Below, in pieces: positions 27,860 to 44,984 of a stretch of 64,000 bases of DNA; position 1 is the stretch's first letter; every line of letters begins with the position of its first letter. A model generated the notes under the pieces. The model did not search any database, had not been told where the DNA came from, and worked only from the letters and a program-made list of their open reading frames with translations. The DNA lies in assembly GCA_913776615.1 (NCBI GenBank), contig CAJYPK010000005.1:62001-126000 (forward strand). The letters are read 5' to 3'. The translations under genes and the position numbers were made by a program. The stretch is from an uncultured Hymenobacter sp. GTDB lineage: Bacteria; Bacteroidota; Bacteroidia; Cytophagales; Hymenobacteraceae.

Positions 27860-28849
27860 ATGATGCCGCCTACCCGCTCTCGTGCTATTGCTGGCTCCGA
27901 CATGTTTGCGGACCAATTATCTATCCAGCCGCTCCTGCCCAGCCCGCCTAGCTTTGCTGGGCACCAGACTTTTGCTCTGCGCTCTGCTTGGCTTAAGAAA
28001 GGCCTTGATGCCCTGCGCAGTGATGCTCGGGTTTTTACCGCTGACGATGCGCTCGTGACCTTAGGAGTAGGTAAAAATATGGTGAGCGCCATTCGGCACT
28101 GGTTACTAGCAACTCAGTTAGTTGAAGCTACAGCCGAACGTAGCAGTGAACTGCAAGCCAGTAGCCTCGGTCATTTTCTGCTTTCTGATAACGGCTACGA
28201 CCCCTATTTAGAGGACCCCGCTACCTTATGGTTGTTGCATTGGAACCTGTGTGGGCCCGGCAGCCAAGCATTTACCTGGACTTACGCTTTCAACGTATGG
28301 CGCGAATGGGAGTGGAGCCTGGGCGCCCTCACTGATGCCATTCAGAACGCTGCTCGCGCTGCCAGCAGTAAACCGGCTTCGACTGAAACCGTGGAGCGTG
28401 ATGTGAGCGTGTTCATTCAAACATACGTGGCTCCCAGCGAGCGTGGCCAAAACGCTGAAGACGGCCTCGACTGTCCCCTGCGCGAGCTAGGGTTGCTGCG
28501 TCCCGCCCTCGGCAACCAGCAGCAATACACCTTCGCTGTTGGTCCCAAACCCAGCTTGCCTACGGCCGTTTTCGCGTGGGCCTTGCTCAAGTTTTGGGAT
28601 TGGAAGTATGCGGGCAACACCACCATCGCCGCCCGCGACATTACTTATGCCGAAGGCTCCCCCGGTGTAGTTTTTAAGCTAGATGAGGATTCTACGCTGG
28701 CCTATCTCGACCAGCTTGAAGTCCTCACCAACGGCAACCTGCGCTTCGAGGATACCCCTTTAGTACGCCAGGTAGTACGCACTACCGCTGAACTTCTTAC
28801 CCCCGAAGTGCTTCTTATTCTTCATTATGCGGCTCCGCTAATTGGGTAG
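27860..28849 (+). CDS. DUF4007 protein, first gene of the island defence operon
   Basis: A 329-aa protein. The block FAGHQTFALRSAWLKKGLDAL, followed by DDALVTLGVGKNMVSAIRHWLLATQLVE and SLGHFLLSDNGYDPYLEDPATLWLLHWNL, is the typical DUF4007 sequence. DUF4007 proteins commonly accompany PAPS-reductase-like (DndC-type) proteins in phage-defence loci; their biochemical role is unknown, and the N-terminus looks like a winged-helix DNA-binding unit. ATG 27860 is chosen; an earlier TTG (27803) and a later ATG (27902) are possible. The large ATPase gene starts 17 bp downstream. Confidence 0.85.
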   Translation: MMPPTRSRAIAGSDMFADQLSIQPLLPSPPSFAGHQTFALRSAWLKKGLDALRSDARVFTADDALVTLGVGKNMVSAIRHWLLATQLVEATAERSSELQASSLGHFLLSDNGYDPYLEDPATLWLLHWNLCGPGSQAFTWTYAFNVWREWEWSLGALTDAIQNAARAASSKPASTETVERDVSVFIQTYVAPSERGQNAEDGLDCPLRELGLLRPALGNQQQYTFAVGPKPSLPTAVFAWALLKFWDWKYAGNTTIAARDITYAEGSPGVVFKLDEDSTLAYLDQLEVLTNGNLRFEDTPLVRQVVRTTAELLTPEVLLILHYAAPLIG

Positions 28850-28866
28850 TCGTTTGGTTCATATTC

Positions 28867-31800
28867 ATGTCTGTTTCTCCCACCCGCACGCTTTCTACTA
28901 TTGTATCCGTTCGGCCTCGTTTCGGCCGGTCGGTGCATCTAGAGCGCGACTTGGCGGCCGGCTCCGCCACCAACGGGTACTTCCTCACGACTTCGGCCCT
29001 CGAAGCGCTGCATGGCGTGCTCCGCGCCCATTCTACGCCCACAGACCGCGCCCTCTCCCTCATCGGACCTTATGGGGCTGGCAAAAGTGCTTTCGCTGCT
29101 TTTTTGGCTCGGCTGGTTTCTGAACCTACGTTTCGAAAACGGACTAAGGTACCCGATGACGTACCCCCCGCACCCCAATTGCTACCCGTGCCCATTGTGG
29201 GCTCACGCACTTCTATTGGTCCGGCCCTGCTTACTGCCCTGCGTCATGCTCTTGAAAATGCTCAGGGTGTGCCAGCTATCCCTCAGGCCCTACTAACAGC
29301 TGAGGCCAAGCCCAGTCCGCGTGCCGTAGCTAACGCATACCTGGCTGTTGCCAAAGCGGTATCGGCTGCGGGCCAGCACGCGGGCCTGTTGTTACTGGTC
29401 GATGAAGCTGGCAAGTTTTTGGAATACGCCGCCACCCATCCTCAGTCTGCCGATATTTTTGTGCTTCAAGAGCTGGCCGAAGCCGCCGCCCGTGCCCCGC
29501 AAGGTGCTGCACTGTGGGTGCTCACCATCCTGCACCAAAACGCGGAAGCCTATGCCCATCGTCTCGGCCGCACCCAGCAGGGTGAGTGGGCAAAGGTAGC
29601 CCAGCGCTTCCGCCAGCTGCCGCTCTTCCCCTCCGATGTCGAGCGCATGGACCTCATCGGCCGTGCATTACTGCATGGCCCCGACCTGCACCTCAACGGT
29701 ACCTTATCCCGGCAGCTGGCCCCCGTGCTCGATGCGCCAGTGCGTATGCTGCCCAACGGCCTCGAAGCCCGCTTCCCCGACTTGGCCCGCGCCGCTTACC
29801 CGCTGCACCCTCTTACGCTGCTGGTCGCGCCTGCTCTGTTTCGCCGCGCTGGCCAAAGCCATCGCAGCATCTTCAACTTCCTCGAAGGCCAAGAGAACGG
29901 TGCTCTCGGGCGCTTCCTACACGAGCAGGCCTACGACCCCGAAAATCCCGCTTTCTTTACCCTCGACGGTCTCTTCGATTACAGCCGCGATGTGCTGCTG
30001 GCCCACTACACCGGCCCTAACGCCCGCCCCTGGCTCGAAGCTGTGGAGTTGGTCGAAAGCGACCTAGCCATCAACCCGCCTTTGAGCCCAATGGCCGCCC
30101 GCGTGCTCAAGTGTATCACGCTGCTCAATTGGCTGCGTGAGCCACGCCTGCCTGCTTCCGACGCAGTGCTCGTTGCTGCGCTGGGCTCCGATGCCAAGCG
30201 GGCTATTGAGGAAGAGTTAGTCACCCGTTCTCTCATTGTTTGGAGCCGCGCCCGTCACAGCTATCGCTTGTGGGAAGGGGGTGATGTGGATGTGGAGGCC
30301 GAGTTAACTACAGCCCGCGGTGCCCTGGCTGGCGACGTGCTGCTGGCCGCCGCCACCGACCCCAACCTGTTTCCGCTGCCACGCTTAGTAGCTCGCCGCC
30401 ATGCTTTCCGCACCGGCACTCTGCGCCCGGTATCGGTCGAGGTGCTGCGCCCCGAGGCCTTGGCCGCCCGCGCCGCCCAGCGCCCCACTGAGTTGGCCGT
30501 GTTGCTGTGCCTGGCTCCTAACTCCGCCGCCGAAGCCGAAGCGTTGGCCAATGCCCAGCGTCTAGCCCAGCCCAACCTGCTTGTCGCTGTCGCCCTCGAA
30601 ACTGAGGCCCTACGCGATGCCGCTTACCATCTGGCCGCCGCCCGAGTGGTACTCGACACTGTTCCCGCCATGCTTGGTGACCGCGCCGCTCGGCGCGAAC
30701 TGGCCTTGCGCCGCCACGAGGCCGACACCATTTTCCGCGCCGAGTGGTCGCGCCTGTTCGGCCCCGCCCTTGGGGCCGAAGGATTGGCCGCCGCCGATGC
30801 TGCTACCACATCGGCCACCTGGCTCACCCAGGCCCACGAAATTGAGTTGCCCGATGCCCGGTCTTTCAGCCGCCAACTGTCGGGGTTGGCCGAGGCTACC
30901 TTCCCTAGCACACCTGTGCTGCGCAACGAGTTACTCAACCGCCGCCAACTCTCCTCGGCCGGGGCCGCCGCCCGTGGGGCGCTGGTCAAGGCAATGCTCA
31001 ACCAAGGCGAGCAGGAGCGCTTGGGCTTCACTGGCTTCCCGCCCGAGTACGCTATGTATGCTTCGGTGCTGCACGCCACCGGCTTGCATTACCAAACCGC
31101 CGACGGCTCGTGGGGCTGGCGCAGTCCCGCCGATACCCCCACTGACCGCGCCCATCTCATCCCAGTTTGGCGGGCCATCGAGCGCCTAGTATTTGGGGCC
31201 GTCCGCCCCATTGCACTGCCCGACCTCTACGACCACTTGCGGGCCGCGCCCTACGGTGTGTCTGAGGGTGTGCTGCCAGTGCTGCTAGCTATTTTCCGAC
31301 GTGTGCATCAGGGCGATACTTCGCTCTACCGCGAAGGCAACTTTCTGGCTGAAGAAAAGGATGCCGATTGGGAGTTGCTGCTACGTCGCCCCGATATGTT
31401 TGCGCTCGGCGATAGCAGGGTGCAGGGTGCCCGCCTAGCCGTAGTAGAGCGTATCGCTGGGGCCACTAGTGTCGTGGCCCAATTAGTGCCCGTTGTGCGT
31501 CGCCTTCTCCGAATGCAGGCCAATCTGCCTGAGTATTCGCGCCAAACCCGCCGTCTCGAACCCGCTGCGCTGGCCCTGCGCGAGGCTTTCCAGGAAGCCC
31601 GCTCTCCCGAAAACTTGCTTTTTTACGCCGCGCCCATCGCCCTCGGCCTGCCGCCCTGGCCTGCCGATGCCCCTGCCGACGAGCCGCGTCTCGACCTGTT
31701 TTTCAGTCGCCTTAACGTGGCGCTGCAAGCTTGGAATGAAGCCTTTCCCCAAGTCCGCACCGAAGGCCGCGACCTGCTGCTGCGGGCCTGTGCCTACCCC

Positions 31801-32220
31801 CCCGGTCCCGATGGGTGGGCCGCCCTGCACCAGCAACTGCACAGCCTTGCCGGTTCGCCTCAGCTTCCCGCCATCCTAGTGCCGTTGGCTAGCCGCTGCA
31901 CCAGCCCCGAGCCAGACCAAGACCTTGACCGTGTGCTAGCTCTAGTGGCTAACCGCCCGCCCCAACTCTGGCGTGATGTCGATGTAGCTGCCTTCCCTAG
32001 CCACGCCGTACCCTACGGCCAGGCCCTCCAGGCCCTCACCGTCGGTCCGGCTCCCATCGCGTCGCGTCCAGCTACCAAAGCCCAGCGCAAACAGGTCGAC
32101 CAGTTCGTTGCCCAGCTCGGTGACTTGCTTCCCCCTCCAGCTAGCCGGCCTCCCGTGCATTTATTGCGCACTGCTGTGTTGCAGTGGCTTAAAAAGCTGG
32201 AGCAGGAAGCCGATGAATGA
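28867..32220 (+). CDS. Large P-loop ATPase of the island defence operon, 1117 aa
   Basis: Walker A is GPYGAGKS (residues 67-74) and Walker B is LLLLVDE (174-180), followed by FVLQELAEAAARAPQGAALWVLTILHQ, an AAA+/STAND-like core. The long remainder is helical with Ala/Arg/Leu-rich repeats and no recognised domain. The position directly after a DUF4007 gene and upstream of a PAPS-reductase gene suggests a defence ATPase, perhaps the equivalent of the DNA-acting ATPases in Dnd or BREX systems. It differs from the second big ATPase at 35634. Its stop codon overlaps the next start by 8 bp, showing tight coupling. Confidence 0.75.
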   Translation: MSVSPTRTLSTIVSVRPRFGRSVHLERDLAAGSATNGYFLTTSALEALHGVLRAHSTPTDRALSLIGPYGAGKSAFAAFLARLVSEPTFRKRTKVPDDVPPAPQLLPVPIVGSRTSIGPALLTALRHALENAQGVPAIPQALLTAEAKPSPRAVANAYLAVAKAVSAAGQHAGLLLLVDEAGKFLEYAATHPQSADIFVLQELAEAAARAPQGAALWVLTILHQNAEAYAHRLGRTQQGEWAKVAQRFRQLPLFPSDVERMDLIGRALLHGPDLHLNGTLSRQLAPVLDAPVRMLPNGLEARFPDLARAAYPLHPLTLLVAPALFRRAGQSHRSIFNFLEGQENGALGRFLHEQAYDPENPAFFTLDGLFDYSRDVLLAHYTGPNARPWLEAVELVESDLAINPPLSPMAARVLKCITLLNWLREPRLPASDAVLVAALGSDAKRAIEEELVTRSLIVWSRARHSYRLWEGGDVDVEAELTTARGALAGDVLLAAATDPNLFPLPRLVARRHAFRTGTLRPVSVEVLRPEALAARAAQRPTELAVLLCLAPNSAAEAEALANAQRLAQPNLLVAVALETEALRDAAYHLAAARVVLDTVPAMLGDRAARRELALRRHEADTIFRAEWSRLFGPALGAEGLAAADAATTSATWLTQAHEIELPDARSFSRQLSGLAEATFPSTPVLRNELLNRRQLSSAGAAARGALVKAMLNQGEQERLGFTGFPPEYAMYASVLHATGLHYQTADGSWGWRSPADTPTDRAHLIPVWRAIERLVFGAVRPIALPDLYDHLRAAPYGVSEGVLPVLLAIFRRVHQGDTSLYREGNFLAEEKDADWELLLRRPDMFALGDSRVQGARLAVVERIAGATSVVAQLVPVVRRLLRMQANLPEYSRQTRRLEPAALALREAFQEARSPENLLFYAAPIALGLPPWPADAPADEPRLDLFFSRLNVALQAWNEAFPQVRTEGRDLLLRACAYPPGPDGWAALHQQLHSLAGSPQLPAILVPLASRCTSPEPDQDLDRVLALVANRPPQLWRDVDVAAFPSHAVPYGQALQALTVGPAPIASRPATKAQRKQVDQFVAQLGDLLPPPASRPPVHLLRTAVLQWLKKLEQEADE

Positions 32221-32650
32221 TGGCCCAACCACGCCGGCATCCATGCGCGTAGTTTTTGAATTGTTAATCAAGCGGCGGCCTTTGTCCGTGCAAGCCAAGG
32301 CCTCCAACCTGCAAGCCTGGATAGAAGAGGTCCGCCGCCAAGCCAAAAAACAGTGGAACCGGCCCGCCCCCCTAGCCGATAAAGCCTTTACGCTTACCCT
32401 GGTATTTCTGTACGAATCTGACCCTATCGACGTAGACAACATCATCAAACCGATTCAAGATGCGCTGGTCGGCGTGGTATATCCCGACGACCAACTCCTC
32501 ACCGACGTGTATAGCCACCGCCGTCTTATCAGCGACACTCTCAGCTTTGCTAGCCTGCCACCTACGCTGGCTACCGCCATCAAAAACCAGAAGGAGTGTG
32601 TTTACTTACAAGTAAAGGCTGGCGCCTTACCTCAATCCTTAGTCGTATGA
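32213..32650 (+). CDS. RusA-like Holliday-junction endonuclease
   Basis: A 145-aa protein. The C-terminal segment SDPIDVDNIIKPIQDALVGVVYPDDQLLTDVYSHRR is the RusA signature, in which clustered Asp residues (DPIDVDN and DDQ) coordinate the metal for cutting branched DNA. RusA proteins are usually phage or prophage resolvases; inside a defence operon, a role on branched or phage-replication intermediates is a reasonable inference. The ATG at 32213 overlaps the end of the ATPase gene; the stop codon overlaps the next gene's ATG (ATGA). Confidence 0.85.
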   Translation: MNDGPTTPASMRVVFELLIKRRPLSVQAKASNLQAWIEEVRRQAKKQWNRPAPLADKAFTLTLVFLYESDPIDVDNIIKPIQDALVGVVYPDDQLLTDVYSHRRLISDTLSFASLPPTLATAIKNQKECVYLQVKAGALPQSLVV

Positions 32651-33339
32651 ACGCAGCAGAAAGCTCCACCGTCCTGTCGGCCTATTTGGCCGAGTTGGTT
32701 CACACGTACCAGCAACGCGGCTACCAGGTCTACCGTGAGCCTGGCGAAGTCGTTGCGCACATTCCGTTCGACCTCGGCGGCTACCGCCCCGACCTGCTTG
32801 TGGAAAAAGGCGATGAGCATCTGCTTATTGAGGTGCGCAGCGAACGGTCACCGTTTTCTATCGACCGGTTTCAAGACCTTACCCTGATGGTACGGCAGCA
32901 TCCAGGCTGGCGCTTCTTGGTAGCAACCCCTAACGGCCAGCACCCGGCGCAGCTTTTAGGTGTCACCGACGAATTGCTCTCCTGGCAGGCCGCTCAGCAG
33001 CAAGCTGCTACTGCCCAGCTCTTGCTCAGCCAAGGCCAGCCTGCCGCGGCCGTGCTGGTAGCGTGGGCGGGCCTCGAAGCCCTTTTGCGCCGCCATGCCG
33101 AGCAGGTAGCCCTACCTATCGACCGGCAGTCTAGCCGTACCTTGCTTAACTATCTATACTCGCAGGGTGAAATATCTATCCCGCAGTATGACCAAGCCCT
33201 GGAATTGTCGGCCCTGCGCAATCGGTTGGCCCACGGCTATCAGCCTACCCAGCCCGTCGAGCCGGCTGCTCGCCAGCTCCTGGCCTTGCTCAACGAACTG
33301 CTGCAAGAGTGGTCGGCCGAAGCCCAGCAGGCCGCCTAG
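32647..33339 (+). CDS. PD-(D/E)XK-like nuclease domain fused to a HEPN-like domain
   Basis: A 230-aa protein. N-terminal part: GGYRPDLLVEKGDEHLLIEVRS (PD at 48-49, E-V-R at 62-64) looks like a restriction-endonuclease fold, although the usual Lys of E-x-K is Arg here. C-terminal part (about 130-220): AAAVLVAWAGLEALLRRHAEQ and SALRNRLAHGYQP, with Arg191 and His196 in the R-x4-H spacing of HEPN RNases. It could therefore cut DNA, RNA or both; activity cannot be shown from sequence. Coupled by ATGA overlap to the RusA-like gene; the PAPS-reductase gene follows after 27 bp. Confidence 0.7.
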   Translation: MNAAESSTVLSAYLAELVHTYQQRGYQVYREPGEVVAHIPFDLGGYRPDLLVEKGDEHLLIEVRSERSPFSIDRFQDLTLMVRQHPGWRFLVATPNGQHPAQLLGVTDELLSWQAAQQQAATAQLLLSQGQPAAAVLVAWAGLEALLRRHAEQVALPIDRQSSRTLLNYLYSQGEISIPQYDQALELSALRNRLAHGYQPTQPVEPAARQLLALLNELLQEWSAEAQQAA

Positions 33340-33366
33340 CATCTCCCACATTTGCCCTCTATCTCC

Positions 33367-34197
33367 GTGAATCTCCCCAACTATACCGGCCCGCTTCATC
33401 CCGAAGGCCAAAAGGTGCGCCACATTCTCTGCCTCTCCGGCGGCAAGGATTCTACCGCCCTGGCCCTCTACATGCGCGATAAAGTGCCCGAAATGGAATA
33501 CGCTTTCGCCGATACGGGGGAAGAGTTGCCAGAAACGTATGAGTATCTAGCAATGCTGGAGGCCTATCTAGGTAAATCAATTGTTCGCCTTAACCCAGAC
33601 CGCTTATTTCAACATCACCTAGATATACGTAATGGGTTCTTACCTTCAGGCCGTCAGCGTTGGTGTACCGATTTGCTTAAAATAAAGCCTTTTGAGGCTT
33701 TTGTAGGCGATGATTTGGTATACTCCTATGTGGGTATTCGCGCTGATGAAAACCGCTCCGGTTATATCTCTAGCAAAACCAATATTATTCCCGTGTTGCC
33801 TTTCAAAGATGATGGGTTGGGGTATGAGGAGGTTATGAAAGTGTTGGATGATAGTGGACTAGGGTTGCCGAAATATTATGAGTGGCGCTCCCGTTCTGGC
33901 TGCTACTTCTGCTTCTATCAGCAGCGTAATGAGTGGGTTGGTCTGAAAGAGCGCCATCCTGACTTATTTGAAAAAGCTAAGACCTTCGAACGGTTTGATG
34001 AAGAAACAGGCACTCGTTTCACTTGGAACCAACGGGAAAGCCTCTCGGAATTAGAAGAGCCTGCCCGAATGGCTCAAATCAAAGCTGACCACCAGGCACG
34101 CTTAGAGCGGCAAAAGAACTTTATACCAGCCAATTTGCTCGATATCCTGGGCGAGGATGACGATAGTGATACGGGCTGCTTGATTTGCCATTTGTAG
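33367..34197 (+). CDS. DndC/PAPS-reductase-like sulfurtransferase (BREX type 4 BrxP-like)
   Basis: A 276-aa N-type ATP-pyrophosphatase. The PP-loop is LSGGKDST (residues 23-30), followed by FADTGEELPETYEYL. Cysteines at 100 (RQRWCTDLLKIKP), 179 and 182 (SGCYFC) could hold an Fe-S cluster as in DndC; an extra CLIC pair ends the protein. DndC uses ATP and a cysteine-desulfurase-derived sulfur to put phosphorothioate into DNA. In BREX type 4 a PAPS-reductase gene stands where other types carry a methylase. GTG 33367 is preferred over TTG 33352. The A+T content is visibly higher from about 33540 to 34790 than in the neighbouring genes. Confidence 0.88.
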   Translation: MNLPNYTGPLHPEGQKVRHILCLSGGKDSTALALYMRDKVPEMEYAFADTGEELPETYEYLAMLEAYLGKSIVRLNPDRLFQHHLDIRNGFLPSGRQRWCTDLLKIKPFEAFVGDDLVYSYVGIRADENRSGYISSKTNIIPVLPFKDDGLGYEEVMKVLDDSGLGLPKYYEWRSRSGCYFCFYQQRNEWVGLKERHPDLFEKAKTFERFDEETGTRFTWNQRESLSELEEPARMAQIKADHQARLERQKNFIPANLLDILGEDDDSDTGCLICHL

Positions 34198-34210
34198 GAA
34201 GTAGAAGAAT

Positions 34211-35032
34211 ATGGAATCTACTGAAAAAGTAGCGCTTAGTTACCATCGGGGATTTGGGTTGGTAAGATCCGCAGTTTCTGCTGTATTGCGCTCATTTGGT
34301 GATGGTAATACCCGTGCACAAGCAGAAGGAGAATTGACATTGGGGCCTGACCAATTTACCGCTGCTATGAACTATAGCGAGCGTAGTGGACTAACAGCCC
34401 TCGGCAAGCCTACCGCTTTTGGTTTAGCTGTACTCGAACATGATGCTATCTTATCTGAGCAGGCCACGCAGTGGGCAATGCACTATTTTCTGTCGAATCC
34501 CGCACTTAATGCCCCCAACTACTGGGCGATGCTGACGCTTAATAATTTGTCATTATTAGGCCAGGTTAATCAAGCTAGAATAACTGAGGCTATTACTGAT
34601 TATTCACAAGAGGTTTCTGGTTGGGAGCCATCAGACAGAACAGTGAAATCTGGAGCAACGGCTTACTTGAGTACTTATGGAAAAGAAGAGGGTTTAGGTT
34701 CGTTGGGAATATTAGAAGATGTTGGAGGCCGTAGTCAATATACTGTCCGTCAGCCTCGTGCATTATCAGCTGGCGCTTTTGCCTGCTTGCTAGCCGATTA
34801 CTGGCAGCGCCATTGGCCCGACCGCTCCGACGTGTTGCTAGAACAAGCAACCCAGGGCGAACTAGCCCGCGTGCTGCTGCTCAGCGAAAACAAGGTGAAT
34901 GACCTGCTTGGCTCCCTGGCGGCGCCCGACCTGGCCCTGGTAAAGCGCCAGCGCAAGCACACGCCTTACCAGGTTATCCGGCAACCTGGCCTCGACGCGG
35001 CCACCCTCTGGGAAACTCACCTCTACCGCTAA
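34211..35032 (+). CDS. Divergent DUF4007-like protein, second copy in the operon
   Basis: A 273-aa protein. It follows the same scheme as the first DUF4007 protein: an N-terminal block with His, Phe and Arg (LSYHRGFGLVRSAVSAVLRSF), a winged-helix-like unit, then AFGLAVLEHDAILSEQATQWAMHYFLS in the place of the SLGHFLLSD...PATLWLLHWNL block. Sequence identity is low. It begins 13 bp after the PAPS-reductase gene, so the pair probably works together. The first about 190 codons are A+T-rich and the last 80 GC-rich, as if the gene were a mosaic. Confidence 0.6.
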   Translation: MESTEKVALSYHRGFGLVRSAVSAVLRSFGDGNTRAQAEGELTLGPDQFTAAMNYSERSGLTALGKPTAFGLAVLEHDAILSEQATQWAMHYFLSNPALNAPNYWAMLTLNNLSLLGQVNQARITEAITDYSQEVSGWEPSDRTVKSGATAYLSTYGKEEGLGSLGILEDVGGRSQYTVRQPRALSAGAFACLLADYWQRHWPDRSDVLLEQATQGELARVLLLSENKVNDLLGSLAAPDLALVKRQRKHTPYQVIRQPGLDAATLWETHLYR

Positions 35033-35050
35033 GCTCGCCGCGCCGCCCCC

Positions 35051-35563: not shown

Positions 35564-35633
35564 CAAAGCCGTGAAAACCCAGCTTACCAAAGTCCTCCTT
35601 TCTTAGTAATAACCCGCCCGCCCGCCTGCCTGT

Positions 35634-38600
35634 ATGAAACACACTTCTACCCTCATCGGCGACGTAACTGTACCAAACCCTGACTTCCGCTTCGTATACG
35701 ACGTGCGGCTGAGCCAGTACCCCGCCGACCCCGATAACCTCGCCCTGGCCAAAGCCTACCAGTGGACCAACCAGCGCATCGGGGCCGATGAGCAGCCCTC
35801 GGTGCAGGTGCTCGAAACAGTGTGCAACGCATACGAATTCAGCAAGGAAGAGCCCCGGCGGGTGTTGCAGGCTACCTATGGCCACGGCAAGTCACACCTG
35901 GCCCTGGCGCTGGCCAATTTTTTCGGTCAGCCCAGCGGTTCGCCCGAAGTAGAGGCCGTGCTGGCCGGGGTAAAGCACGTGTCGCCGGGTGTGGAAATCC
36001 GCCTGCGCACCTTTAAAGCTGACCGCGCCCCCTATCTAGTACTGCGCCTGACGGGCGGTAGTGACGACAGTCTCTCCGCTGCCGTGGTGCGTGGTTTCGA
36101 AACCGCTCTTAATGAGAATCCCGCCACCCGTGGCACCGAGTTAGGCCTGTGGTTCGACAAGGCCCTGACCGTGCTCAATAAGTTCACCCCCACGCAAGTC
36201 AAAGACGCCGATAAATACCTAGAAATTCACGCTCCTGAAGAAAAGCTCGACCTAGGAGCCTTGCGCGCTACCCTGCACGGCGACCTGCGCGACGGCCGCC
36301 ACCGCGAGCTAACCCACCAGCTGGTCGAGCATATTCTAGGCGTGTATCCCAACTTTGGGGCCGCCCTCACGCCCCGCGAACTACTCAACAAAGTAGGCCG
36401 CGAGTTTTGTGGTCCCGGCAAAGCCTTTGCCGGTATTTTGGTGCTCTTCGACGAGTTTGCCGCCTTCGTCGAGTCCTACGCCCGCCAGTACGGCCGCCAC
36501 ACCGAAAGCCAGCCCCTGCAAAGCCTGCTCGATGGCATCAGCGACTTGCAGCAGCCCGAGCCCGGCCAGACTGGCAAGCGTAATAAAGCGGTATTGTTGG
36601 CCTTCTCCCAGCAGGACCCCGACGACGTGGCCGAGATAGCCATGCGCGAGCGTGGAGCCAGCAAAACCACTCTCGGCGATCTCAAGAAAGAGCTGACCCG
36701 CCTACCCAATGAGGCCCGCAACCCGCTCTATTCTCCTATGGAAGCCGTGCTTGATGCCTATCTCAAGCAAGACAAAAACGTGTGGGAGGCCCTCACGCCC
36801 GACGACTCTCCCGCTGACAGCGACGTGATGGATGCCGTCGATGCCGTGCGTAATTTCTTCCCCCAGCGCTACAACGATGCCGCCGGCTGGACCCTCGACC
36901 GCATCAGCCATACCCTGGCCTACGGCTGCCACCCGTTGCATCCGCTTACCACGGCCTTGCTGTGCTCGGCCACCTTGCGCGCTGGCTCCGCCGCCCGCAC
37001 GGTCTTGTCGTTCGTCACTGACACCATCAAAGATGCAAAGGGCCGCCCCGCCCTAGCCGACGACGGCCGCCTGTGCTGGATACGCCCTATCGCGCTGGTC
37101 ACCTACTACAAGCACCAGCTTGTAGCCGAAGATGCCTGGAAGCAATACCAGACCACTCTCAGCAAGGCCAACCCCGCCAACATCCCGCACACCGAGGCTA
37201 CGTTGCAGGCTATGCTGCTCTACCTCACTGCCGAATTCAAGCCCGGCGACACGGATGCGACCGACTACTTCGGCGCCTTAGCCGTGCTCACTGGCCTGGC
37301 GCGCCCTGCGGTAAAGCGTGCCCTCACTGCACTCGAAAGCGCCGGCTATATTGAGCACGATTCGGTAAGCGCTACCTACCGGTTTTGGGCCAATAACCAG
37401 GACGGCTCCCAGGTGCGCCTGGCCGTAACCGAAGGACTCGAAAAACTCAAGCGCGACGACAATAAAATGCTCGTCGCCCTCGACCGTAGCCTACGCCAGG
37501 AAGAAGCCAATTTTGCTTCGCTAGGGGCCGTTTCGTTCCTCAATACCACGAATTCTGATTGGAACGCCCGCATTCAGTTCGTACCGCGCCAGCTGTGGGC
37601 ACCCGAGTATCTGGCCATGCTGCTTCAGCCTCGCCGGCTCGAAGCTAACGGCCGTCTCTCCGACGCGACCCGTGGCTATGTGCTTGTCCCCCTGGCTACC
37701 AGCGATGCCGACGTGCAGTGGCTGCGTCAGCACGCCGAGCGCGACCTAAATAAAGCCATAAGCAGCTTCGCCGACCGCCAGCAGGTGCCGCCCGTAGTAG
37801 CCGTGCTACCCAAAAAGCCCCACGATGCCCTTGTTAATGGGATATTGGAGCTAGATGTACTGGGCAATCTTTCTGATGCTCAAAAACGCGACCTAGGGGC
37901 CGAGCCGCTTACTCAGCGCCGCACCGCCGTGCGCACCAAAGTGCAGAGCGCCCTCGATGCCCTCAAAGCTGATGTGCGAGCCGCGGCTGATTACATCGTG
38001 CCCACCATTCACCGCTCCGGTGTCGAGCGGCAACTCACTGGTAAGCGCAATGTCAACCTCTCCCACGTGCTGGCCGCCGCCTACGAAACGGTGTACTACC
38101 GCTATGCCCCCTATCTGGACGATTCTACCCGCGGTACTAAGCTGCGCGAAGCGGTAGGCATGGCTGCTGTGCGCCTTTATAAGGGCAATTTCCGCGATTG
38201 GGAAGAAGCCACCGTCCGGGGTAACCTTGGCCGCGCCCGCGACTTGTATAGTAAGGTATTGCGTATCGGCTCGCTCACCTCGTGGGGGGTAGTTGATAGA
38301 AGTGAACGGGTAACTCCTCCTAAATTACCAATCGTAAAACTCGCGTGGGACGTGTTGGAAGCCGCCGTGCCACCGGGTGCCGAGAGCCAGCCTTTGCGCC
38401 CAGCCCTATTACAGCTGCTTAACGCACCCTACGGCTATGATCCCTGGTCGCTCGGCCTACTCTTCGCCACCTGGTACGGTGCCAACCACCACCAGCTTCA
38501 GATTACTGATGCCCAGGGCCAGCCCCGCGATTACAATGCTTGGCTTGGTACCAACAATAATTTCGAGGCCATCCTCGAAACGATGCTGCACACCTACGAC

Positions 38601-39983
38601 CTGCGAGCTACCCGCATCAATGAGGTTGTGGTGGAAGGCGAAGTCCAGGAGCTAATCAGCAAGCTCCGCTTTCCCGCGCCCATGCCGCTGGCCGATGCCG
38701 ATGCCGCGCTCCAAAAGCTCACCCAGTTTGCCAGCGCCGAGGGTGGCAGCAGCACCCGTTTGCGTGAGGAAGCCCAGCAAGCAGCCGAGCAGCTAAACCA
38801 CGAAGTGAAGCAGGCGCAGGCTTACGAAACCCGTATTACAGAAGCGCTATTGTCGCTCGATGCGGTACCGGCTACTGCCAACGGCATCAGGCAGTTGGTC
38901 GAACTCTACCAGTTATTCAGCAACCCTACTAAAGCTGGCATACCGTTGGGGCGGGTGCAGCCCCCCAGCCAGGCCACCATCAGTCAGGCACAGAAAAGCG
39001 TATCCATTAAGTTGCGGCCCCTGCTTACCGATGTAAGCACTGAGCTAGCTAACATCCCTTCGCTGCGAAGCTATGAGCTATCTAAACAAAAGCTAAGTGC
39101 CTTGTTGGTAGTGATTACGCCGCTGGGTGAACCCGACCTAGAGCGTCGCGTCCGCGATGCGCAGGATGAATTAGAAAAACTCAATGAGGAGTACGGTAAA
39201 GTAGAGCTGGATAAAGAAATCCGCGAGAAGGTAACCGAGTCGCGTCGTGCCAGCACCTTAGGTCTTAGAGACTTGCGTGAGCTGCTGAATTACTTTTCCA
39301 GTGCTACTCCCCAAGCCGATTCTACTTTGTCGATGGTGGCCGAAGCTACCGTTGCCCTTAATTCCCGGCAGCAGGAAACCGAGGCTTGGCTACTTGCCAT
39401 GCAGGAGCGCGCTCAATTGCTTACCGAAGCCAGCGCCATTAATGTTTTTGAGCGCGACCTCAACCGCAAAGCCGCCCAGTTCGAGGGAACTTCTGAAAAC
39501 GAGCAGCTTAAAGAGTTAGAGCTTCATGCCAAAAGGGTAGGTTCATTGCTAGCCGACCTCAAAGAGCAGCGCAGCAAGAAGCCCAAAACTGCCGATGACA
39601 TGCGCAAGGTCGTGCGCGAATACGAACGCCTGGCGGCCCGTGAGGGCCTTACTGAGGCTCAGCTAGCCCTTATTGCCCAGGAGCGCACCGATTTCGAGCG
39701 CCGCTTCGACCAGCAGCGACAAGCTGCCAGTCAAAAGCTCGATGAGTTGATTCGTAGCAATGAAGACAAAGAGGCCCCTGCGCCGCTGCTGGACGCTGCC
39801 GAGAAAAAGCTCGAATTCTTGCCCGATGAGGACAAACCCCGCCGTGATGCTCTGGAGAAAGACCTCAAGCGCCGCATTGCCAAAGACCGTGCAAGCATCG
39901 CCGAAAAAGCTTTTCTTGACATCGGCAACCGCACGGAGCAAAAGGCCCTGCTGACCAAGCTCCAGCATCTGCTCGAACACTAA
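35634..39983 (+). CDS. BrxC/PglY-like giant P-loop ATPase, 1449 aa
   Basis: The N-terminus leads into the Walker A segment ATYGHGKSHLALALANFFG (K86, S87); Walker B is ILVLFDEFAAFVES near residues 267-280. A central helical region follows, and about the last 430 residues (from roughly 1020) are Glu/Lys/Ala-rich and predicted to form long coiled coils (DELEKLNEEYGKVELDKEI, RTDFERRFDQQRQAASQKL). This size and layout match the large ATPase of BREX/Pgl systems, where it is essential together with PglZ. The PglZ gene follows after about 20 bp. The 1117-aa ATPase upstream is a separate family, so the operon carries two. Confidence 0.75.
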   Translation: MKHTSTLIGDVTVPNPDFRFVYDVRLSQYPADPDNLALAKAYQWTNQRIGADEQPSVQVLETVCNAYEFSKEEPRRVLQATYGHGKSHLALALANFFGQPSGSPEVEAVLAGVKHVSPGVEIRLRTFKADRAPYLVLRLTGGSDDSLSAAVVRGFETALNENPATRGTELGLWFDKALTVLNKFTPTQVKDADKYLEIHAPEEKLDLGALRATLHGDLRDGRHRELTHQLVEHILGVYPNFGAALTPRELLNKVGREFCGPGKAFAGILVLFDEFAAFVESYARQYGRHTESQPLQSLLDGISDLQQPEPGQTGKRNKAVLLAFSQQDPDDVAEIAMRERGASKTTLGDLKKELTRLPNEARNPLYSPMEAVLDAYLKQDKNVWEALTPDDSPADSDVMDAVDAVRNFFPQRYNDAAGWTLDRISHTLAYGCHPLHPLTTALLCSATLRAGSAARTVLSFVTDTIKDAKGRPALADDGRLCWIRPIALVTYYKHQLVAEDAWKQYQTTLSKANPANIPHTEATLQAMLLYLTAEFKPGDTDATDYFGALAVLTGLARPAVKRALTALESAGYIEHDSVSATYRFWANNQDGSQVRLAVTEGLEKLKRDDNKMLVALDRSLRQEEANFASLGAVSFLNTTNSDWNARIQFVPRQLWAPEYLAMLLQPRRLEANGRLSDATRGYVLVPLATSDADVQWLRQHAERDLNKAISSFADRQQVPPVVAVLPKKPHDALVNGILELDVLGNLSDAQKRDLGAEPLTQRRTAVRTKVQSALDALKADVRAAADYIVPTIHRSGVERQLTGKRNVNLSHVLAAAYETVYYRYAPYLDDSTRGTKLREAVGMAAVRLYKGNFRDWEEATVRGNLGRARDLYSKVLRIGSLTSWGVVDRSERVTPPKLPIVKLAWDVLEAAVPPGAESQPLRPALLQLLNAPYGYDPWSLGLLFATWYGANHHQLQITDAQGQPRDYNAWLGTNNNFEAILETMLHTYDLRATRINEVVVEGEVQELISKLRFPAPMPLADADAALQKLTQFASAEGGSSTRLREEAQQAAEQLNHEVKQAQAYETRITEALLSLDAVPATANGIRQLVELYQLFSNPTKAGIPLGRVQPPSQATISQAQKSVSIKLRPLLTDVSTELANIPSLRSYELSKQKLSALLVVITPLGEPDLERRVRDAQDELEKLNEEYGKVELDKEIREKVTESRRASTLGLRDLRELLNYFSSATPQADSTLSMVAEATVALNSRQQETEAWLLAMQERAQLLTEASAINVFERDLNRKAAQFEGTSENEQLKELELHAKRVGSLLADLKEQRSKKPKTADDMRKVVREYERLAAREGLTEAQLALIAQERTDFERRFDQQRQAASQKLDELIRSNEDKEAPAPLLDAAEKKLEFLPDEDKPRRDALEKDLKRRIAKDRASIAEKAFLDIGNRTEQKALLTKLQHLLEH

Positions 39984-40008
39984 TCCGTCTATTTTTTCGT
40001 CGTTGCTT

Positions 40009-42324
40009 GTGTCGCCTCTAAGCTCTTTTTTACTGCTCGACCCCTACGGCGATGCCCTAGTGCCACTCGGCTACACTCTCGTCACTACCGAGTTGGAATG
40101 GCTGCGCGAAATTAACGGCGCTGGCACTTCGGTGCCCTTAGTAGTAGTGCGCGGTGCCAGCCTCACGTCATGGGCCAGGACCTGGTGGGAAGCCCAGGGC
40201 GGCGAGTGCCAGAAGTTGGATTCGCCAGGTTACATACTCCAACAGTTAGTACCTACCCTGTCCACCGTCGCTGCTCAGGCCGTCGCCCAGGAGTTAAACG
40301 CGCATTGGGGCGAAGCTACCTGGCCTGCCGCCCTCACGCTGCCAGAAGTACTCACCGCGCTTTACCCATCCGCTCCGGCACTATGGGAAGCTGTGCCCAG
40401 CGCCGAGCCTGTCGACGTAGCGAACGTTGCCGGTCAGTGGCACGCTTGGCTCTACGAATCCGGCCGCACCGAGTGGCCGCCCTATTACGAGCCTGTGCTA
40501 GCCGCATGGGCTGCTGAGTGGCAAAAAGCTACTACCCAAGCCACTGCTCTGTTGCCACTCGACCCAGCCGCCGCGCAAGGTGTGTACCGCGCCTGGGTAG
40601 GATTAGCCACCGAGCCGGTACCTCGGCCACTGCGGCAGGTCTTTAATTGGGCTGGCCCTTGCCCGGTACCTGTGCCAGCCGCTTGGCTAGCCGAAGCCCG
40701 CCACCATTGGGAAACTGACCTGCCCCGGTACGTAGCTGCTCGCCCAGCCGGTACGGAAGCTGGTATCGCAATAGTCGCTTGGTGGTCGCAGGTAACCAAC
40801 CAGCATCTACACCCCGACTTGCTACCATTGGCCCTTGGTGTGGCCGTGCAGTACGTGCATCAGCACCGTGCTGCGCTCACCGCCGACCTGTTGCGTGCTT
40901 TACGCAGTAATATGGCCCCCGAGGATTACACCGAGCTGGCCCGCCACCTGCCACCTGCCGAACCTGGCCTACTGCCCACTGACCCCGAAGCCGTATTGCA
41001 ATGGGCTACCGATGAGTACTTGCCCTACCGCCTCTGGCAAGCTGCATTAGAGCAATCAGATGAGGCTGCCGCTGCTGTAGTGCGCCATCATGCACTGGCC
41101 TTTGGTAGTTGGCTCCTGGCCAATTACCCTGGTCGGCTTACTGGTGCTACCCATAGCTATCAGCAGCTTTACTGGGCGCAGTCCGACCGCGTGCTTCCGC
41201 AGCAGAAAAACGAAGTAGTGGTATGGGTTATTGCCGATGGCTTAGGTTGGGCCGATGCTCGTTACGTAGCTCAGAAAGTAGGGGAACAGTCTGCCAATCG
41301 TCTCACTACTATTGGTGCTGCCCGCTGCTTCGGATTGTTGCCCACCATCACACGCTTCACCAAAGTGCCTGTGCGAGCCGGTAGGCCTTACATCAACACC
41401 CTCAGCCGTTCAGCTGAGTTTGCTGCCGAATTTGCCACCGATGTGCGCGATAGCCAAGACCCTGTGCCCCGTGCCCGCCAGCTCGTCGGTGGCCAGCTAT
41501 TGGTGTGGAAGCCCTTGCAGCCCGACTTCACGTACCACGAGTCCGCTGAGGCCTCAATGGTGCGTCGCAATGTGGTTGGCGTACTCAATTTGATGGCTCA
41601 AACTATCGTTGCGATAGCCCAAAATATATCTCGCACCCTGAGTTTGCGGATAATCATCACCACTGACCACGGCCGCATGTTGGGCACCGGTACTCGGGCA
41701 GTAACCGTGCCCGCTGGCTTTGAGGCTCACGGGCGCGTTGCTTACCGCCAGGCCCCCGGCCTACCCCCCGAGCCCTCGCCCGACATCGAATGGCTCGACC
41801 CCGATTTCTTCAACCTACCCGATTGGGTAGGGGTCGTGCGCGACGAGCGCAGCTTCCGCAAGCTGCACAAAGATGGCGTCCAGTCCGGTGGCCCCGATAA
41901 CTTCTCCCACGGCGGTATATGGCCCGAAGAAGTCGTTGTGCCCTGGCTAACGCTCCAGCGCGATGCCTTACCCGTCAACGTAACGGGTACTGCCACTGGC
42001 CGGGCGCGTGCAGGTAGCATGGGCACTGCTAAGCTGCAACTTTTCAACGAGGCCGACCGCTCCGTTCGCTTGCGCCGCATCCACATTACCTGGTCCGTTG
42101 GTCCACCGCTCGAAGTCGGAATTACTGCTACCCTTCCTGGGCAGCAAAGTATATCCATACCCGTTCCACTCACCGATTGGCCCGATGGATTGAGAATTGG
42201 CGGCGCTACTATTTTTATAACTGCCGAGCTGCCCGACGGCCGCGAGCAGCAATTCCGCCTGAGCAATCAACTTAGTGCCGATGAGTTCCAAACCCGCCAG
42301 GTTGACTTACTCGGCGACCTTTAA
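40009..42324 (+). CDS. pglZ: PglZ-domain protein of the BREX-like system
   Basis: A protein of about 771 aa. After a 390-residue helical N-terminal part, the PglZ (alkaline-phosphatase-superfamily) domain begins at VVVWVIADGLGWADARYV (about residue 403; the Asp is the metal site), continues with IIITTDHGRMLGTG (about 550) and FSHGGIWPEEVVVPWLTL (about 632). PglZ is the signature gene of all BREX types and is needed for protection; biochemical work points to a phosphodiesterase-type fold. The last 120 residues form a beta-rich domain (PLEVGITATLPGQ, GGATIFITAELPDG). GTG 40009 or TTG 40003 are the start candidates. BrxL follows after 14 bp. Confidence 0.9.
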   Translation: MSPLSSFLLLDPYGDALVPLGYTLVTTELEWLREINGAGTSVPLVVVRGASLTSWARTWWEAQGGECQKLDSPGYILQQLVPTLSTVAAQAVAQELNAHWGEATWPAALTLPEVLTALYPSAPALWEAVPSAEPVDVANVAGQWHAWLYESGRTEWPPYYEPVLAAWAAEWQKATTQATALLPLDPAAAQGVYRAWVGLATEPVPRPLRQVFNWAGPCPVPVPAAWLAEARHHWETDLPRYVAARPAGTEAGIAIVAWWSQVTNQHLHPDLLPLALGVAVQYVHQHRAALTADLLRALRSNMAPEDYTELARHLPPAEPGLLPTDPEAVLQWATDEYLPYRLWQAALEQSDEAAAAVVRHHALAFGSWLLANYPGRLTGATHSYQQLYWAQSDRVLPQQKNEVVVWVIADGLGWADARYVAQKVGEQSANRLTTIGAARCFGLLPTITRFTKVPVRAGRPYINTLSRSAEFAAEFATDVRDSQDPVPRARQLVGGQLLVWKPLQPDFTYHESAEASMVRRNVVGVLNLMAQTIVAIAQNISRTLSLRIIITTDHGRMLGTGTRAVTVPAGFEAHGRVAYRQAPGLPPEPSPDIEWLDPDFFNLPDWVGVVRDERSFRKLHKDGVQSGGPDNFSHGGIWPEEVVVPWLTLQRDALPVNVTGTATGRARAGSMGTAKLQLFNEADRSVRLRRIHITWSVGPPLEVGITATLPGQQSISIPVPLTDWPDGLRIGGATIFITAELPDGREQQFRLSNQLSADEFQTRQVDLLGDL

Positions 42325-42338
42325 CGCTTCTTCTCATT

Positions 42339-43823
42339 ATGGCTACTAATACTGATGAATTGTTCAGTGGGCTCTTCGATGATAGCTCTGTTGCGCTGCC
42401 CCGCCTGGTGCACGGCGTGGACATGGCTGCGCTCGAAACCAAGGTGGTAAACGTCTTCGGCAACGTATCCATCGACAAGCGCCGTCTACCCGCTTCTAAA
42501 TTGCAAAGCCGGGGCATTCCTGGCTACGTAGCCGAGTGGGTATTAGAGTCCCGTGTTCCCGGTCGTGGCCCCCTCTCAGCTGAGGATGCTACCAAAGTAT
42601 TAGAGTGGGCCGCCCGTGTAGTCCCCAAGGCTGACGAGGGCAACCTCATCCGCAACCGATTATTAAATGGCGAGGCCGTGCGGATTCTTACTCCCGTGCA
42701 AGTAGACGTAAACCTGACCGGCAAAAAGGCCGAGCGGGTTGCCAAACTTCCCATGATAGGCGAGGAGCGAGCACAAATTGCCGAGCACCTACTCGAAACC
42801 TACCCCGCTCTATTGCAGCAAGGCATGTGGGGCGTAGCGCAGCTCATCTATATCCGCGACCAGGGCATCGTTATCACCGAGTTTCAGCCTATGCAGGCTA
42901 CCGTGGATTTAGCCCGGTGGCGCGAAGCCCGCCGCGAGTTCACGCTGGCCGAATGGCGCTCCCTGCTACTGCTCACGATGGGCTATAACCCCGCCGCATA
43001 TACCCCCAATCAGCAACTACTAGTGCTGGCTCGTTTGCTGCCCTTGGTTCAGAAAAACGTGCACCTCATGGAGTTAGCTCCAAAGGGTACCGGCAAAAGC
43101 TACGTCTACGAAAATATTTCGCCGCTCGTGCGCCTTATCAGTGGCGGCAACGTGTCGCCAGCTGTTCTTTTCGTCAATAACCAAACCAACCAGCCTGGCA
43201 TCTTGGCTCGTTACGCGGTAGTCGTGCTAGACGAGGTGCAAACCCTTAAATTTGAGAATCCCGCCGAAATCGTTGGGGGCCTGAAAGGTTACCTAGCCAA
43301 TGGCAAAATATCACGGGGTGGCAAGCATGAGATAGCTTCCGACTGTGGCTTTGTATTGCTAGCTAACATCACCCTCGACGCGAGCCAGCGTCCCGCCCGC
43401 ACGCCCTATGTGAGCGAGCTACCCAAATTCTTGCAGGAAACCGCCTTCCTTGACCGTATTCGCGGCCTCATCCCCGGCTGGGAAATTCCGAAGCTTTCCC
43501 CTGCTAGCTTCGCTGAGCAAAGCGGCCTCAAAGCCGACTACTTCAGTGACATCCTGCTGCTACTACGTCAGGAGTTAGAAACCGACGCCTATTGCGCCCG
43601 CCATATCCAGCTAGGCCCTGACGCCTACCAGCGCAATCAAGAGAGCATTCGTGCCTTAGCTAGTGGCTATATGAAGCTGCTTTTCCCTCATGGCGAAGTA
43701 AAGGACGAGGACTTTAAAAAATACTGCGTTCAGCCGGCTATCAACCTGCGCCAAGGTGTTTGGGACCAGCTTTATACTCTCGACCCCGAGTATCGCAAAT
43801 ACGGTCAGTTCGTGACTCCCTAA
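42339..43823 (+). CDS. brxL: BrxL-like AAA+ ATPase lacking the Lon-protease domain
   Basis: A 494-aa protein. The sequence MELAPKGTGKSYVYENISPLVRLISGGNVSPAVLFVNN (Walker A about residue 246), YAVVVLDEVQTLKFENPAEIVGGLKGYLANGKISRGGKHEI (Walker B about 293) and GFVLLANITLD is typical of BrxL. BrxL proteins usually have about 650-700 residues with a C-terminal Lon-like protease domain; here the protein ends soon after the AAA+ lid, so that part is absent. BrxL is an ATP-dependent DNA-translocating ring required for BREX protection. The cysteine desulfurase gene starts 9 bp downstream. Confidence 0.9.
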   Translation: MATNTDELFSGLFDDSSVALPRLVHGVDMAALETKVVNVFGNVSIDKRRLPASKLQSRGIPGYVAEWVLESRVPGRGPLSAEDATKVLEWAARVVPKADEGNLIRNRLLNGEAVRILTPVQVDVNLTGKKAERVAKLPMIGEERAQIAEHLLETYPALLQQGMWGVAQLIYIRDQGIVITEFQPMQATVDLARWREARREFTLAEWRSLLLLTMGYNPAAYTPNQQLLVLARLLPLVQKNVHLMELAPKGTGKSYVYENISPLVRLISGGNVSPAVLFVNNQTNQPGILARYAVVVLDEVQTLKFENPAEIVGGLKGYLANGKISRGGKHEIASDCGFVLLANITLDASQRPARTPYVSELPKFLQETAFLDRIRGLIPGWEIPKLSPASFAEQSGLKADYFSDILLLLRQELETDAYCARHIQLGPDAYQRNQESIRALASGYMKLLFPHGEVKDEDFKKYCVQPAINLRQGVWDQLYTLDPEYRKYGQFVTP

Positions 43824-43832
43824 CTTACCCCG

Positions 43833-44984
43833 ATGCAGCCCCTGATTTACCTCGACCATCACGCCACTACCCCCTGCGACCCGCTAGTAGTAGAGGCCAT
43901 GCTGCCTTACTTCACCACGCAGTTTGGCAACCCTTCCTCGGCCCACGCTGCCGGCGCTCGTACCGCTGATGTTGTGCAGACTGCCCGCGAGCAAGTGGCT
44001 GGCTTAGTAGGGGCGCAGCCAGGCGAAGTCGTCTTCACCAGCGGTGCTACCGAGGCCAACAATCTAGCCCTGCTCGGCTACGCCCGCGCTGCCCGCGTTA
44101 CCAATCCGCGCCGCCGCATTGTCATTTCTGCCATTGAACATAAAGCCATCATCAACCCTGCCAAGCAACTGGCTCGCGAAGGCTTTGAAATAATTACACT
44201 CCCCGTAGACACCCAAGGCACTGTAGACCTAGACGCCGCTGCTGAAGCTATTACCCCCGATACCCTACTAGTTTCTATCCACGCCGCCAACGGTGAAATC
44301 GGCACTATCCAGCCTATCCAGCAGCTGGCGCAGCTGGCCCACGCCGTCGGTGCGCTCATCCACACCGATGCCGCCCAAGCAGTAGGCAAAATCCCAATTG
44401 ACCTACTAGCGTGGGGTGTTGATTTCTTATCCATTAGCGCCCACAAGCTCTACGGCCCCCAAGGGGTAGGAGCCTTAATCGTACGCCACCCACGCCGCAT
44501 CCAGCTGGAGCCTCTAGGGTACGGCGGCGGTCAGGAACGTAGTTGGCGCTCTGGTACCCTTAACGTGCCAGGTATTGTTGGCTTCGGTGCCGCCTGCGCA
44601 CTCTGCGCAGACCTGCTACCCACTGAAAGTATCCGCCTCGCAACCCTCCGCGATGAGTTTGAAGCTGCTATACTAGCCGCCATACCAGAAGCTCACCGCA
44701 ATGGCAACCTGAATAACCGTCTCCCTCACAATAGCAGTCTCACCTTCCCAGGCATTGAAGCCGACGCTTTGCTTGCCCGCTTGCCTCAGCTTGCCCTTAG
44801 TACTGGTTCGGCTTGTGACTCTGGTACGGTCGAGCCTTCAGCTACCCTACTAGCTATCGCACTTTCTCGTGATGATGCTCGTGCTACGGTAAGGGTAGGA
44901 GCGGGAAGATTTATCTCGGAAAAAGATTTATCTTATAGCTGTAATATTATGGTAAGACAAATTAATTTGCTGAAAAACATGTAA
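43833..44984 (+). CDS. Cysteine desulfurase (DndA/IscS-like) at the end of the operon
   Basis: A 383-aa PLP enzyme taking sulfur from cysteine. The hallmark blocks are LDHHATTPCDPLVVEAMLPYF, FTSGATEANNLALLG, ISAIEHKAI, DAAQAVGKIPIDLLAWGVDFLSISAHKLYGPQGVG with the PLP Lys, and the active-site Cys loop STGSACDSG. In Dnd systems DndA (or IscS) delivers the sulfur that DndC inserts into the DNA backbone. A housekeeping IscS is not usually at the end of a phage-defence operon, and it is tightly linked here (9 bp after brxL), so it is read as the sulfur donor of this system. The coding sequence becomes A+T-rich at the very end. Confidence 0.88.
   Translation: MQPLIYLDHHATTPCDPLVVEAMLPYFTTQFGNPSSAHAAGARTADVVQTAREQVAGLVGAQPGEVVFTSGATEANNLALLGYARAARVTNPRRRIVISAIEHKAIINPAKQLAREGFEIITLPVDTQGTVDLDAAAEAITPDTLLVSIHAANGEIGTIQPIQQLAQLAHAVGALIHTDAAQAVGKIPIDLLAWGVDFLSISAHKLYGPQGVGALIVRHPRRIQLEPLGYGGGQERSWRSGTLNVPGIVGFGAACALCADLLPTESIRLATLRDEFEAAILAAIPEAHRNGNLNNRLPHNSSLTFPGIEADALLARLPQLALSTGSACDSGTVEPSATLLAIALSRDDARATVRVGAGRFISEKDLSYSCNIMVRQINLLKNM

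Follow-up and report, generated by a model that had tools for sequence, protein, structure and literature searches.

A conserved operon joining a predicted phosphorothioate writer to a BREX-like module, with two putative loader pairs, in an uncultured Hymenobacter

Does an eleven-gene operon of an uncultured Hymenobacter sp. encode an enlarged version of a named phage defence system, or an arrangement in which one machine would mark DNA and another would restrict it? The operon lies in a 64,000-nucleotide stretch of contig CAJYPK010000005.1 (assembly GCA_913776615.1, positions 62,001 to 126,000 of the forward strand; hereafter the window, in whose open reading frame (ORF) coordinates operon positions are given), from a genome of 6.08 Mb. 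All eleven ORFs are on the plus strand, from an ATG at 27860 to position 44984 (Table 1). An earlier note, made from sequence alone, had described them as a bacteriophage exclusion (BREX) type 4-like operon with extra sulfur, nuclease and ATPase genes, and its picture of overlapping or closely spaced same-strand genes is confirmed to the coordinate. The sspC gene overlaps the RusA-like gene by 8 nucleotides (RusA ATG at 32213), which overlaps the AHJR gene by 4, and the remaining spacings are 9-70 nucleotides. Promoter and terminator scans gave counts at or below chance (4 versus 7.1, and 19 versus 17.4).

The operon is a conserved hybrid of a phosphorothioate (PT) system and BREX with two putative loader pairs and an inferred function; what the analysis shows is its gene content, conserved order, homology, predicted folds, the differing divergence of its modules and the island that carries it. 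Nine of the eleven genes constitute the conserved system, and the RusA-like and AHJR-HEPN genes are sporadic accessories. Relatives of the large ATPase ORF8 numbered 257 at E <= 0.001 among 7,996 candidates scored (120 of them listed), and two peptide patterns, derived by aligning the window ORF8 with 25 of these relatives, gave 41 loci when searched for in genome contigs. The set sspB1-sspC-sspD-sspB2-orphan-ORF8-pglZ-brxL-sspA is complete and in order in 24 of the 41 loci, by gene profiles that were built from these same loci and are partly circular, members having trained them. Because the nine core genes recur in this way, the operon is not a chance association. The 24 complete loci span four phyla, namely Bacteroidota, Chloroflexota, Thermodesulfobacteriota and Thermomicrobiota. 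For instance, a plasmid of Thermomicrobium roseum DSM 5159 (the one examined of three plasmid records matched by ORF8) has all nine genes, annotated as DUF4007, hypothetical, PAPS reductase, DUF4007, hypothetical, hypothetical, PglZ, BrxL and cysteine desulfurase. A phage origin of the ORF8 ATPase was rejected, phage records having no ORF8 match at E 1e-5.

Five of the 17 other loci (L011, L015, L016, L021 and L031) lack only genes past the contig end, and L019 and L025 are incomplete as tiny contigs. No sspA match was found near brxL in L020, L034, L033 and L040; in the last two the 0.9 and 0.6 kb that follow brxL hold none, and L033 is also cut at its start. In L004 an interruption separates sspC from ORF8, the SspFGH type accounts for L037 and L039, and L041, L042 and L043 are divergent. 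As to whether all eleven genes stay together, a survey that the earlier note had proposed, nine do so; besides the window, RusA and AHJR were found in L003 alone among the 41 loci (profiles from two sequences each). In a survey of 395 Bacteroidota genomes (E <= 0.001), ORF8 matches six, with three strong matches, all in the window's genus and including its own genome, and three weak or distant ones. Among 100 genomes of the family (E <= 1e-20), SspC is present in 18, 13 of them without ORF8, and ORF8 in five; one of these five, G410, is the genome behind L007, and its locus L122 is identical in all nine genes.

The gap between sspD and sspB2 is filled in certain Chloroflexota and Thermomicrobiota loci by an ORF about 160-174 amino acids (aa) long (L013:8222-8701, L014:8138-8635, L015:8131-8628, L016:2598-3095, L029:7216-7740, L032:8170-8679 and L038:8173-8676); its copy in L015 was without a match in Pfam or PADLOC. 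L013 also has a 448-aa ORF between two sspC pieces (L013:3555-4901), perhaps an insertion.

Genes 1, 2, 5 and 11 of the operon score as sspB, sspC, sspD and sspA, a complete PT writer that is predicted from homology to make PT. The sspB1 product matches the solved SspB 6juf (E 1.2e-35). The second protein, which the earlier note had left as a 1117-aa ATPase, is SspC; it also matches one PADLOC BrxC cluster model at 503 bits, and alignment of 11 sequences shows its GPYGxGKS and DE to be invariant. SspD matches Pfam PAPS reductase at 36 bits and, in PADLOC, BrxP at 28 bits, and the SGGKDS motif is present in 33 of 33 SspD sequences. At the scores given here and in Table 1, the note's labels for both DUF4007 proteins, RusA, PAPS reductase, BrxL and cysteine desulfurase agree with Pfam, and that for PglZ agrees with PADLOC. 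In the case of the proposed nuclease/HEPN fusion, the nuclease half is borne out by AHJR, and the HEPN half has a weak CARF-HEPN match (15.7 bits) and an R-x4-H motif read by eye. Among the eleven operon proteins there is no methyltransferase match in PADLOC and Pfam scans, and no SspE or SspFGH match in PADLOC.

The remaining five core genes form the second module. SspB2 is related to SspB1 by profile comparison (E 6.3e-30), and the orphan has an AAA+-like fold from which Walker A is absent. BrxB was not among the fold matches listed for the orphan, and no solved relative was found by sequence (best E 0.26). The predicted fold of ORF8 matches BrxC, which upholds the note's BrxC/PglY-like label at the level of fold, but no BrxC profile matched the window protein; of 26 family members, 11 match an SspC model and one matches each of two BrxC models. 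Pfam gave no match to the window PglZ, and its three motif patterns matched 21, 24 and 34 of 35 rows, some of which are incomplete. The brxL product matches the solved BrxL 8emc (E 1.8e-56), its Walker A being judged from the window sequence itself.

This gene content suggests that SspABCD probably marks host DNA with PT, and that a separate BREX-like complex would recognise and stop DNA without the mark. By homology, SspA would take sulfur from cysteine and SspD would transfer it, with SspB1 and SspC choosing the site and loading the writer. A second, divergent DUF4007/AAA+ pair, SspB2 with ORF8, would load the restriction complex on DNA, and the small inactive AAA+ orphan may link ORF8 to PglZ, as BrxB links BrxC and PglZ in type I BREX. 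PglZ would then cut DNA, and BrxL would act on replicating phage DNA. According to PMC11931770, dndABCDE, sspBCD and brxPCZL synthesise PT, such that PT in BREX type 4 is already in print, and nicking by SspB has been described (PMC12707154). A wider proposal is put forward more tentatively, as falling somewhat short of probable: that writing and restriction each have their own DUF4007 protein and AAA+ ATPase, and that SspB2-ORF8 is a general reader-loader of PT status that can work with either PglZ-BrxL or SspFGH-like nucleases and moves among hosts independently of the writer.

Could a single loader suffice? By the broad definition of PMC12839542 the operon would be a type 4 system; that paper lists BrxC(SspC), PAPS reductase, DUF4007, PglZ, BrxL and, often, cysteine desulfurase, all six being present. 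SspC could then be the one working BrxC, serving both marking and restriction, as its BrxC model match might suggest, with the second DUF4007, the orphan and ORF8 as ancillary sensors. This is unlikely, for the window PglZ reaches only 20 bits with the BREX-4 model (NCBIfam BREX_PglZ_4, NF033445; cut-off 140), albeit a strict model, whose cut-off is exceeded in 1 of 296 Bacteroidota genomes. The two classical BREX-4 loci compared, L100 and L101 (Bacteroidota with strong BrxP; L101's own PglZ scored 138.6), have the order brxP-brxC-pglZ-brxL with one ATPase of ~1385 aa, and the second DUF4007/ATPase pair was not detected in either. At E <= 0.001 the BrxP survey admitted 264 of 395 genomes, too many to be selective, and only its three matches above 800 bits were used. 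Window-type PglZ aligns with that of L100 and L101 over only 26 columns (E 3.7e-4), with BREX-1-like PglZ at E 3.5e-9, and with PglZ of methyltransferase-type loci at E 1.7e-26 over 415 columns, the best of three kinds compared, using reference profiles that are weak (2-4 sequences each) and a BREX-1 label that derives from gene sizes and BrxL matches. The orphan, moreover, is kept in 34 of the 41 ORF8 loci.

The BrxL tree has 26 rows, 14 of them from hand-chosen nine-gene loci, and carries a long-branch warning; nine-gene, BREX-4, methyltransferase-type and BREX-1 BrxL separate, without a firm branching order for the first three, and the nine-gene BrxLs are a clade of their own (100/100) apart from BREX-4 BrxL. 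A classical BREX type 4 with extras was rejected on the score of PglZ with the BREX-4 model and on the presence of two loader pairs versus one. The earlier idea of a sulfur-type BREX survives in that PT-marking enzymes are coupled to PglZ and BrxL, but not as an enlarged type 4, and the genes regarded as additions, the SspABCD writer and the second DUF4007/ATPase pair, belong to the nine-gene set.

Relatives of the second module are found in other company. In L037, L039 and L102, relatives of SspB2 (91, 73 and 49 bits) and ORF8 (1030, 990 and 525 bits) follow three genes, which in L037 score SspF 112, SspG 50 and DndH/SspH 200/76 bits; the three-gene sets of L039 and L102 match those of L037 at 313-1086 bits. 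L039 additionally matches SspB, SspC and SspA, and SspD weakly, and an SspA match lies at the edge of L102. These loci bear on whether the second module might instead sense PT marks and be activated by PT, as SspE is, rather than attacking unmarked DNA. SspE is reported to require PT to act (PMC8092258, PMC9646914), and SspB2 is a DUF4007 protein related to the site-binding SspB1, but PT-triggered action is quite improbable and attack on unmarked DNA is favoured, mainly because SspB2-ORF8 pairs accompany SspFGH-like genes, SspFGH being reported to damage DNA without PT (PMC8092258). In addition, a related DUF4007-small AAA-BrxC-like-PglZ-BrxL set accompanies a methyltransferase.

These methyltransferase loci are possibly another unnamed BREX arrangement. 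An Eco57I/DrmMI-type methyltransferase scored in L043 and L103, and L042 ends <0.3 kb after the ATPase. L043 and L103 have the best PglZ profile match and the same five-gene order as the second module of the nine-gene set, but with a methyltransferase as writer and one loader pair; the small AAA protein of this type has a GK[ST]-type P-loop in the three sequences, in contrast to the orphan, which has no Walker A. In a further locus (L125:1-14170), SspB-SspC-SspD of the second lineage precede DUF4007, a gene of 155 aa, a BrxC-like ATPase of 1567 aa, PglZ and BrxL. Its ATPase scores 199 with SspC, 178 with the methyltransferase type and 100 with ORF8, its PglZ scores about equally with both PglZ models, and its small protein matches none. 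L125 is a candidate only, and a lead to follow, for a PT writer joined to a methyltransferase-type module, the kind of module being uncertain.

The two halves of the operon differ in divergence. Between the window and L006, identity is 81, 83 and 91% for SspB1, SspC and SspD, then 40, 38, 36 and 39% for SspB2, orphan, ORF8 and PglZ, with 68% for BrxL and 80% for SspA. The same step is found between L006 and L008 (89-95% for the writer, then 36-44%, then 68 and 84%), and the reverse step between L007 and L121 (32, 27 and 51%, then 67, 56, 72 and 69%, and 93% for BrxL, with no sspA match in L121). The window and L104 have no step (73, 73 and 90%; then 80, 61, 72 and 64%; then 91 and 76%). In an ATPase tree (LG+G4; 34 rows comprising nine loci with both genes and comparison loci; composition warnings for 13 rows), L121 ORF8 is sister to L007 ORF8 (100/100) and L121 SspC lies in another SspC lineage. 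Window-type SspC sequences, among which L123 falls, do not strictly form a single clade (2 changes), nor does the second SspC group (3 changes), and the placement of L125 is unsure. By these comparisons, the writer and the SspB2-orphan-ATPase-PglZ block have different histories within Hymenobacteraceae, the simplest reading of the identity steps being the exchange of one module, at least in L121.

Rapid co-evolution could account for the identity steps other than that of L121. The Ssp writer and a BREX remnant might also be two independent systems that merely adjoin, as suggested by the differing divergence of the halves and, for L121, their tree position, by L020, in which the writer is in opposite orientation to the second module, and by L037, which has SspB2 and ORF8 without a PT-writer match within the 16 kb examined. 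Mere adjacency is nonetheless highly improbable, given one nine-gene order across 24 loci of four phyla, the position of all five ORF8 genes of the family survey 2.3-3.4 kb from sspC, and the lack of a methyltransferase match in the operon to serve the BREX half.

The operon resides on a 22.9-kb integrative island (window 27543-50454), bounded by perfect 47-bp repeats and holding five further ORFs. Integrase, flanking direct repeats and a tRNA gene are all present, the repeat being the last 46 bases of tRNA-Gly and the next base. In 2-kb windows the GC fraction runs from 0.66 to 0.69 over 20-27 kb and from 0.52 to 0.65 within the island, with dips to 0.56 elsewhere in the window too. The excisionase-like helix-turn-helix (HTH) protein also matches PHROG families of unknown function at 48 and 42 bits. 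A search for an empty site in relatives found none: matches in other genomes were limited to the repeat, short flanking sequence and a tRNA-like stretch. At least 10 of 61 genomes of the genus, the window's included, have two repeat copies (>=96%) 7-38 kb apart on the same contig; the site may be a hotspot, with tandem tRNA genes as the alternative. To the right of the attR-like repeat, window 50581-50628 is, in reverse complement, 96% identical to the 5' part of tRNA-Gly. An ARAGORN tRNA-Ser call at 48563-48643, overlapping the HTH gene on the other strand, may be false.

Table 1. Positions of operon and island features in the window, and of related loci in their own contigs
Feature	Position	Strand	Evidence
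sspB1 (DUF4007), predicted DNA-binding subunit of PT writer	27860..28849	+	PADLOC SspB 314 bits; Pfam DUF4007 270 bits
sspC, predicted 1117-aa ATPase of PT writer	28867..32220	+	PADLOC SspC 864 bits
RusA-like nuclease gene, accessory	32213..32650	+	Pfam RusA 28 bits; PHROG RusA 30 bits
AHJR-like nuclease fused to HEPN-like domain (ORF4), accessory	32647..33339	+	Pfam AHJR 66 bits
sspD, predicted PAPS-reductase-like sulfur-transfer enzyme	33352..34197	+	PADLOC SspD 376 bits
sspB2, divergent second DUF4007, BrxA-like position	34211..35032	+	Pfam DUF4007 43 bits
Orphan, small AAA+-like protein without Walker A, candidate BrxB equivalent	35051..35563	+	
ORF8, 1449-aa BrxC-fold ATPase, distant SspC relative, predicted second loader	35634..39983	+	
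pglZ, predicted metal-dependent nuclease/phosphatase	40003..42324	+	PADLOC PglZ 172 bits; DG, TDHG, HGG motifs
brxL, AAA+ Lon-like BREX factor	42339..43823	+	TIGR02688 505 bits; Pfam BrxL_ATPase 341 bits
sspA, cysteine desulfurase	43833..44984	+	PADLOC SspA 471 = DndA 471 bits; Pfam aminotransferase V 271 bits
tRNA-Gly (CCC), apparent integration site	27515..27588	+	ARAGORN
attL-like 47-bp direct repeat	27543..27589	.	perfect repeat with 50408-50454
150-aa ORF on island	45884..46336	+	no Pfam, PADLOC, PHROG match
141-aa ORF on island	46372..46797	+	no Pfam, PADLOC, PHROG match
427-aa ORF on island	47182..48465	-	no Pfam/PHROG match; PADLOC only mad8 11.7 bits
Small HTH protein, excisionase-like	48469..48759	-	PHROG HTH 30, excisionase/regulator 20 bits
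Tyrosine integrase	48885..50252	-	Pfam Arm-DNA-bind_5, SAM_5, Phage_integrase; PHROG integrase 83 bits
attR-like copy of 47-bp repeat	50408..50454	.	perfect repeat with 27543-27589
SspB2-like + ORF8-like beside SspFGH-like genes	L037:3-14119; L039:2-21134; L102:4238-18292		
Methylating cousin, methyltransferase-DUF4007-small AAA-BrxC-like-PglZ-BrxL	L043:1105-13718; L103:2-13069; L042:452-9189 (incomplete)		

Of 2,678 sspBCD modules, 2,211 are reported to be without SspE and SspFGH, and the question was raised whether further restriction partners exist (PMC8092258). The nine-gene operon is one conserved candidate partner for such modules and, if the two-loader reading is true, would be a missing partner for part of them. 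Other Hymenobacteraceae SspBCD modules (L123, L124, L126 and L127) lie beside other large genes, possible further restriction partners. Type I BREX is reported to use the same BrxC in marking and restriction, by a switching mechanism described as open (PMC13326643); the operon, if read correctly, would give to two machines the work done by one in type I BREX, and with two BrxC-type ATPases, one predicted for the writer, marking and restriction would be separately deletable. One shared protein pair, SspB2-ORF8, would also link Ssp, BREX and SspFGH. Inactive STAND domains are reported in only 64% of type-4 loci (PMC12839542), and if nine-gene-like loci are among the remainder, a small AAA gene that stands alone could have escaped notice.

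With respect to known systems, a HerA-type BREX-related capture (BRC) system was rejected, as scans of the operon and of ten ORFs near it gave no HerA-named match. The sections of PMC12839542 consulted have no mention of a second BrxC-like ATPase or second DUF4007 in type 4, and no earlier description of the two-loader architecture was found in the literature searched, though a prior one is possible. The operon shares with BREX type 4 (brxPCZL) a PAPS reductase, an SspC/BrxC-like ATPase, DUF4007, PglZ, BrxL and cysteine desulfurase, and differs from it by its separate SspB, SspC and SspD proteins, its second DUF4007, a small AAA-like protein encoded on its own, a second BrxC-fold ATPase and a PglZ well under the BREX-4 cut-off. 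Against the classical form, the PAPS-reductase-type enzyme and BrxL are common to both, whereas the single BrxC-type ATPase of the latter stands against two in the operon, SspC and ORF8. A complete SspABCD writer is shared with the SspABCD-SspE and SspABCD-SspFGH systems, but in the place of a recognisable SspE or SspFGH the operon has a PglZ/BrxL restriction half. Finally, the operon resembles BREX type 1 (BrxA-BrxB-BrxC-PglX-PglZ-BrxL) in its BrxC fold, PglZ, BrxL and candidate BrxA-like and BrxB-like proteins, and differs in having a predicted PT writer in the place of the PglX methyltransferase.

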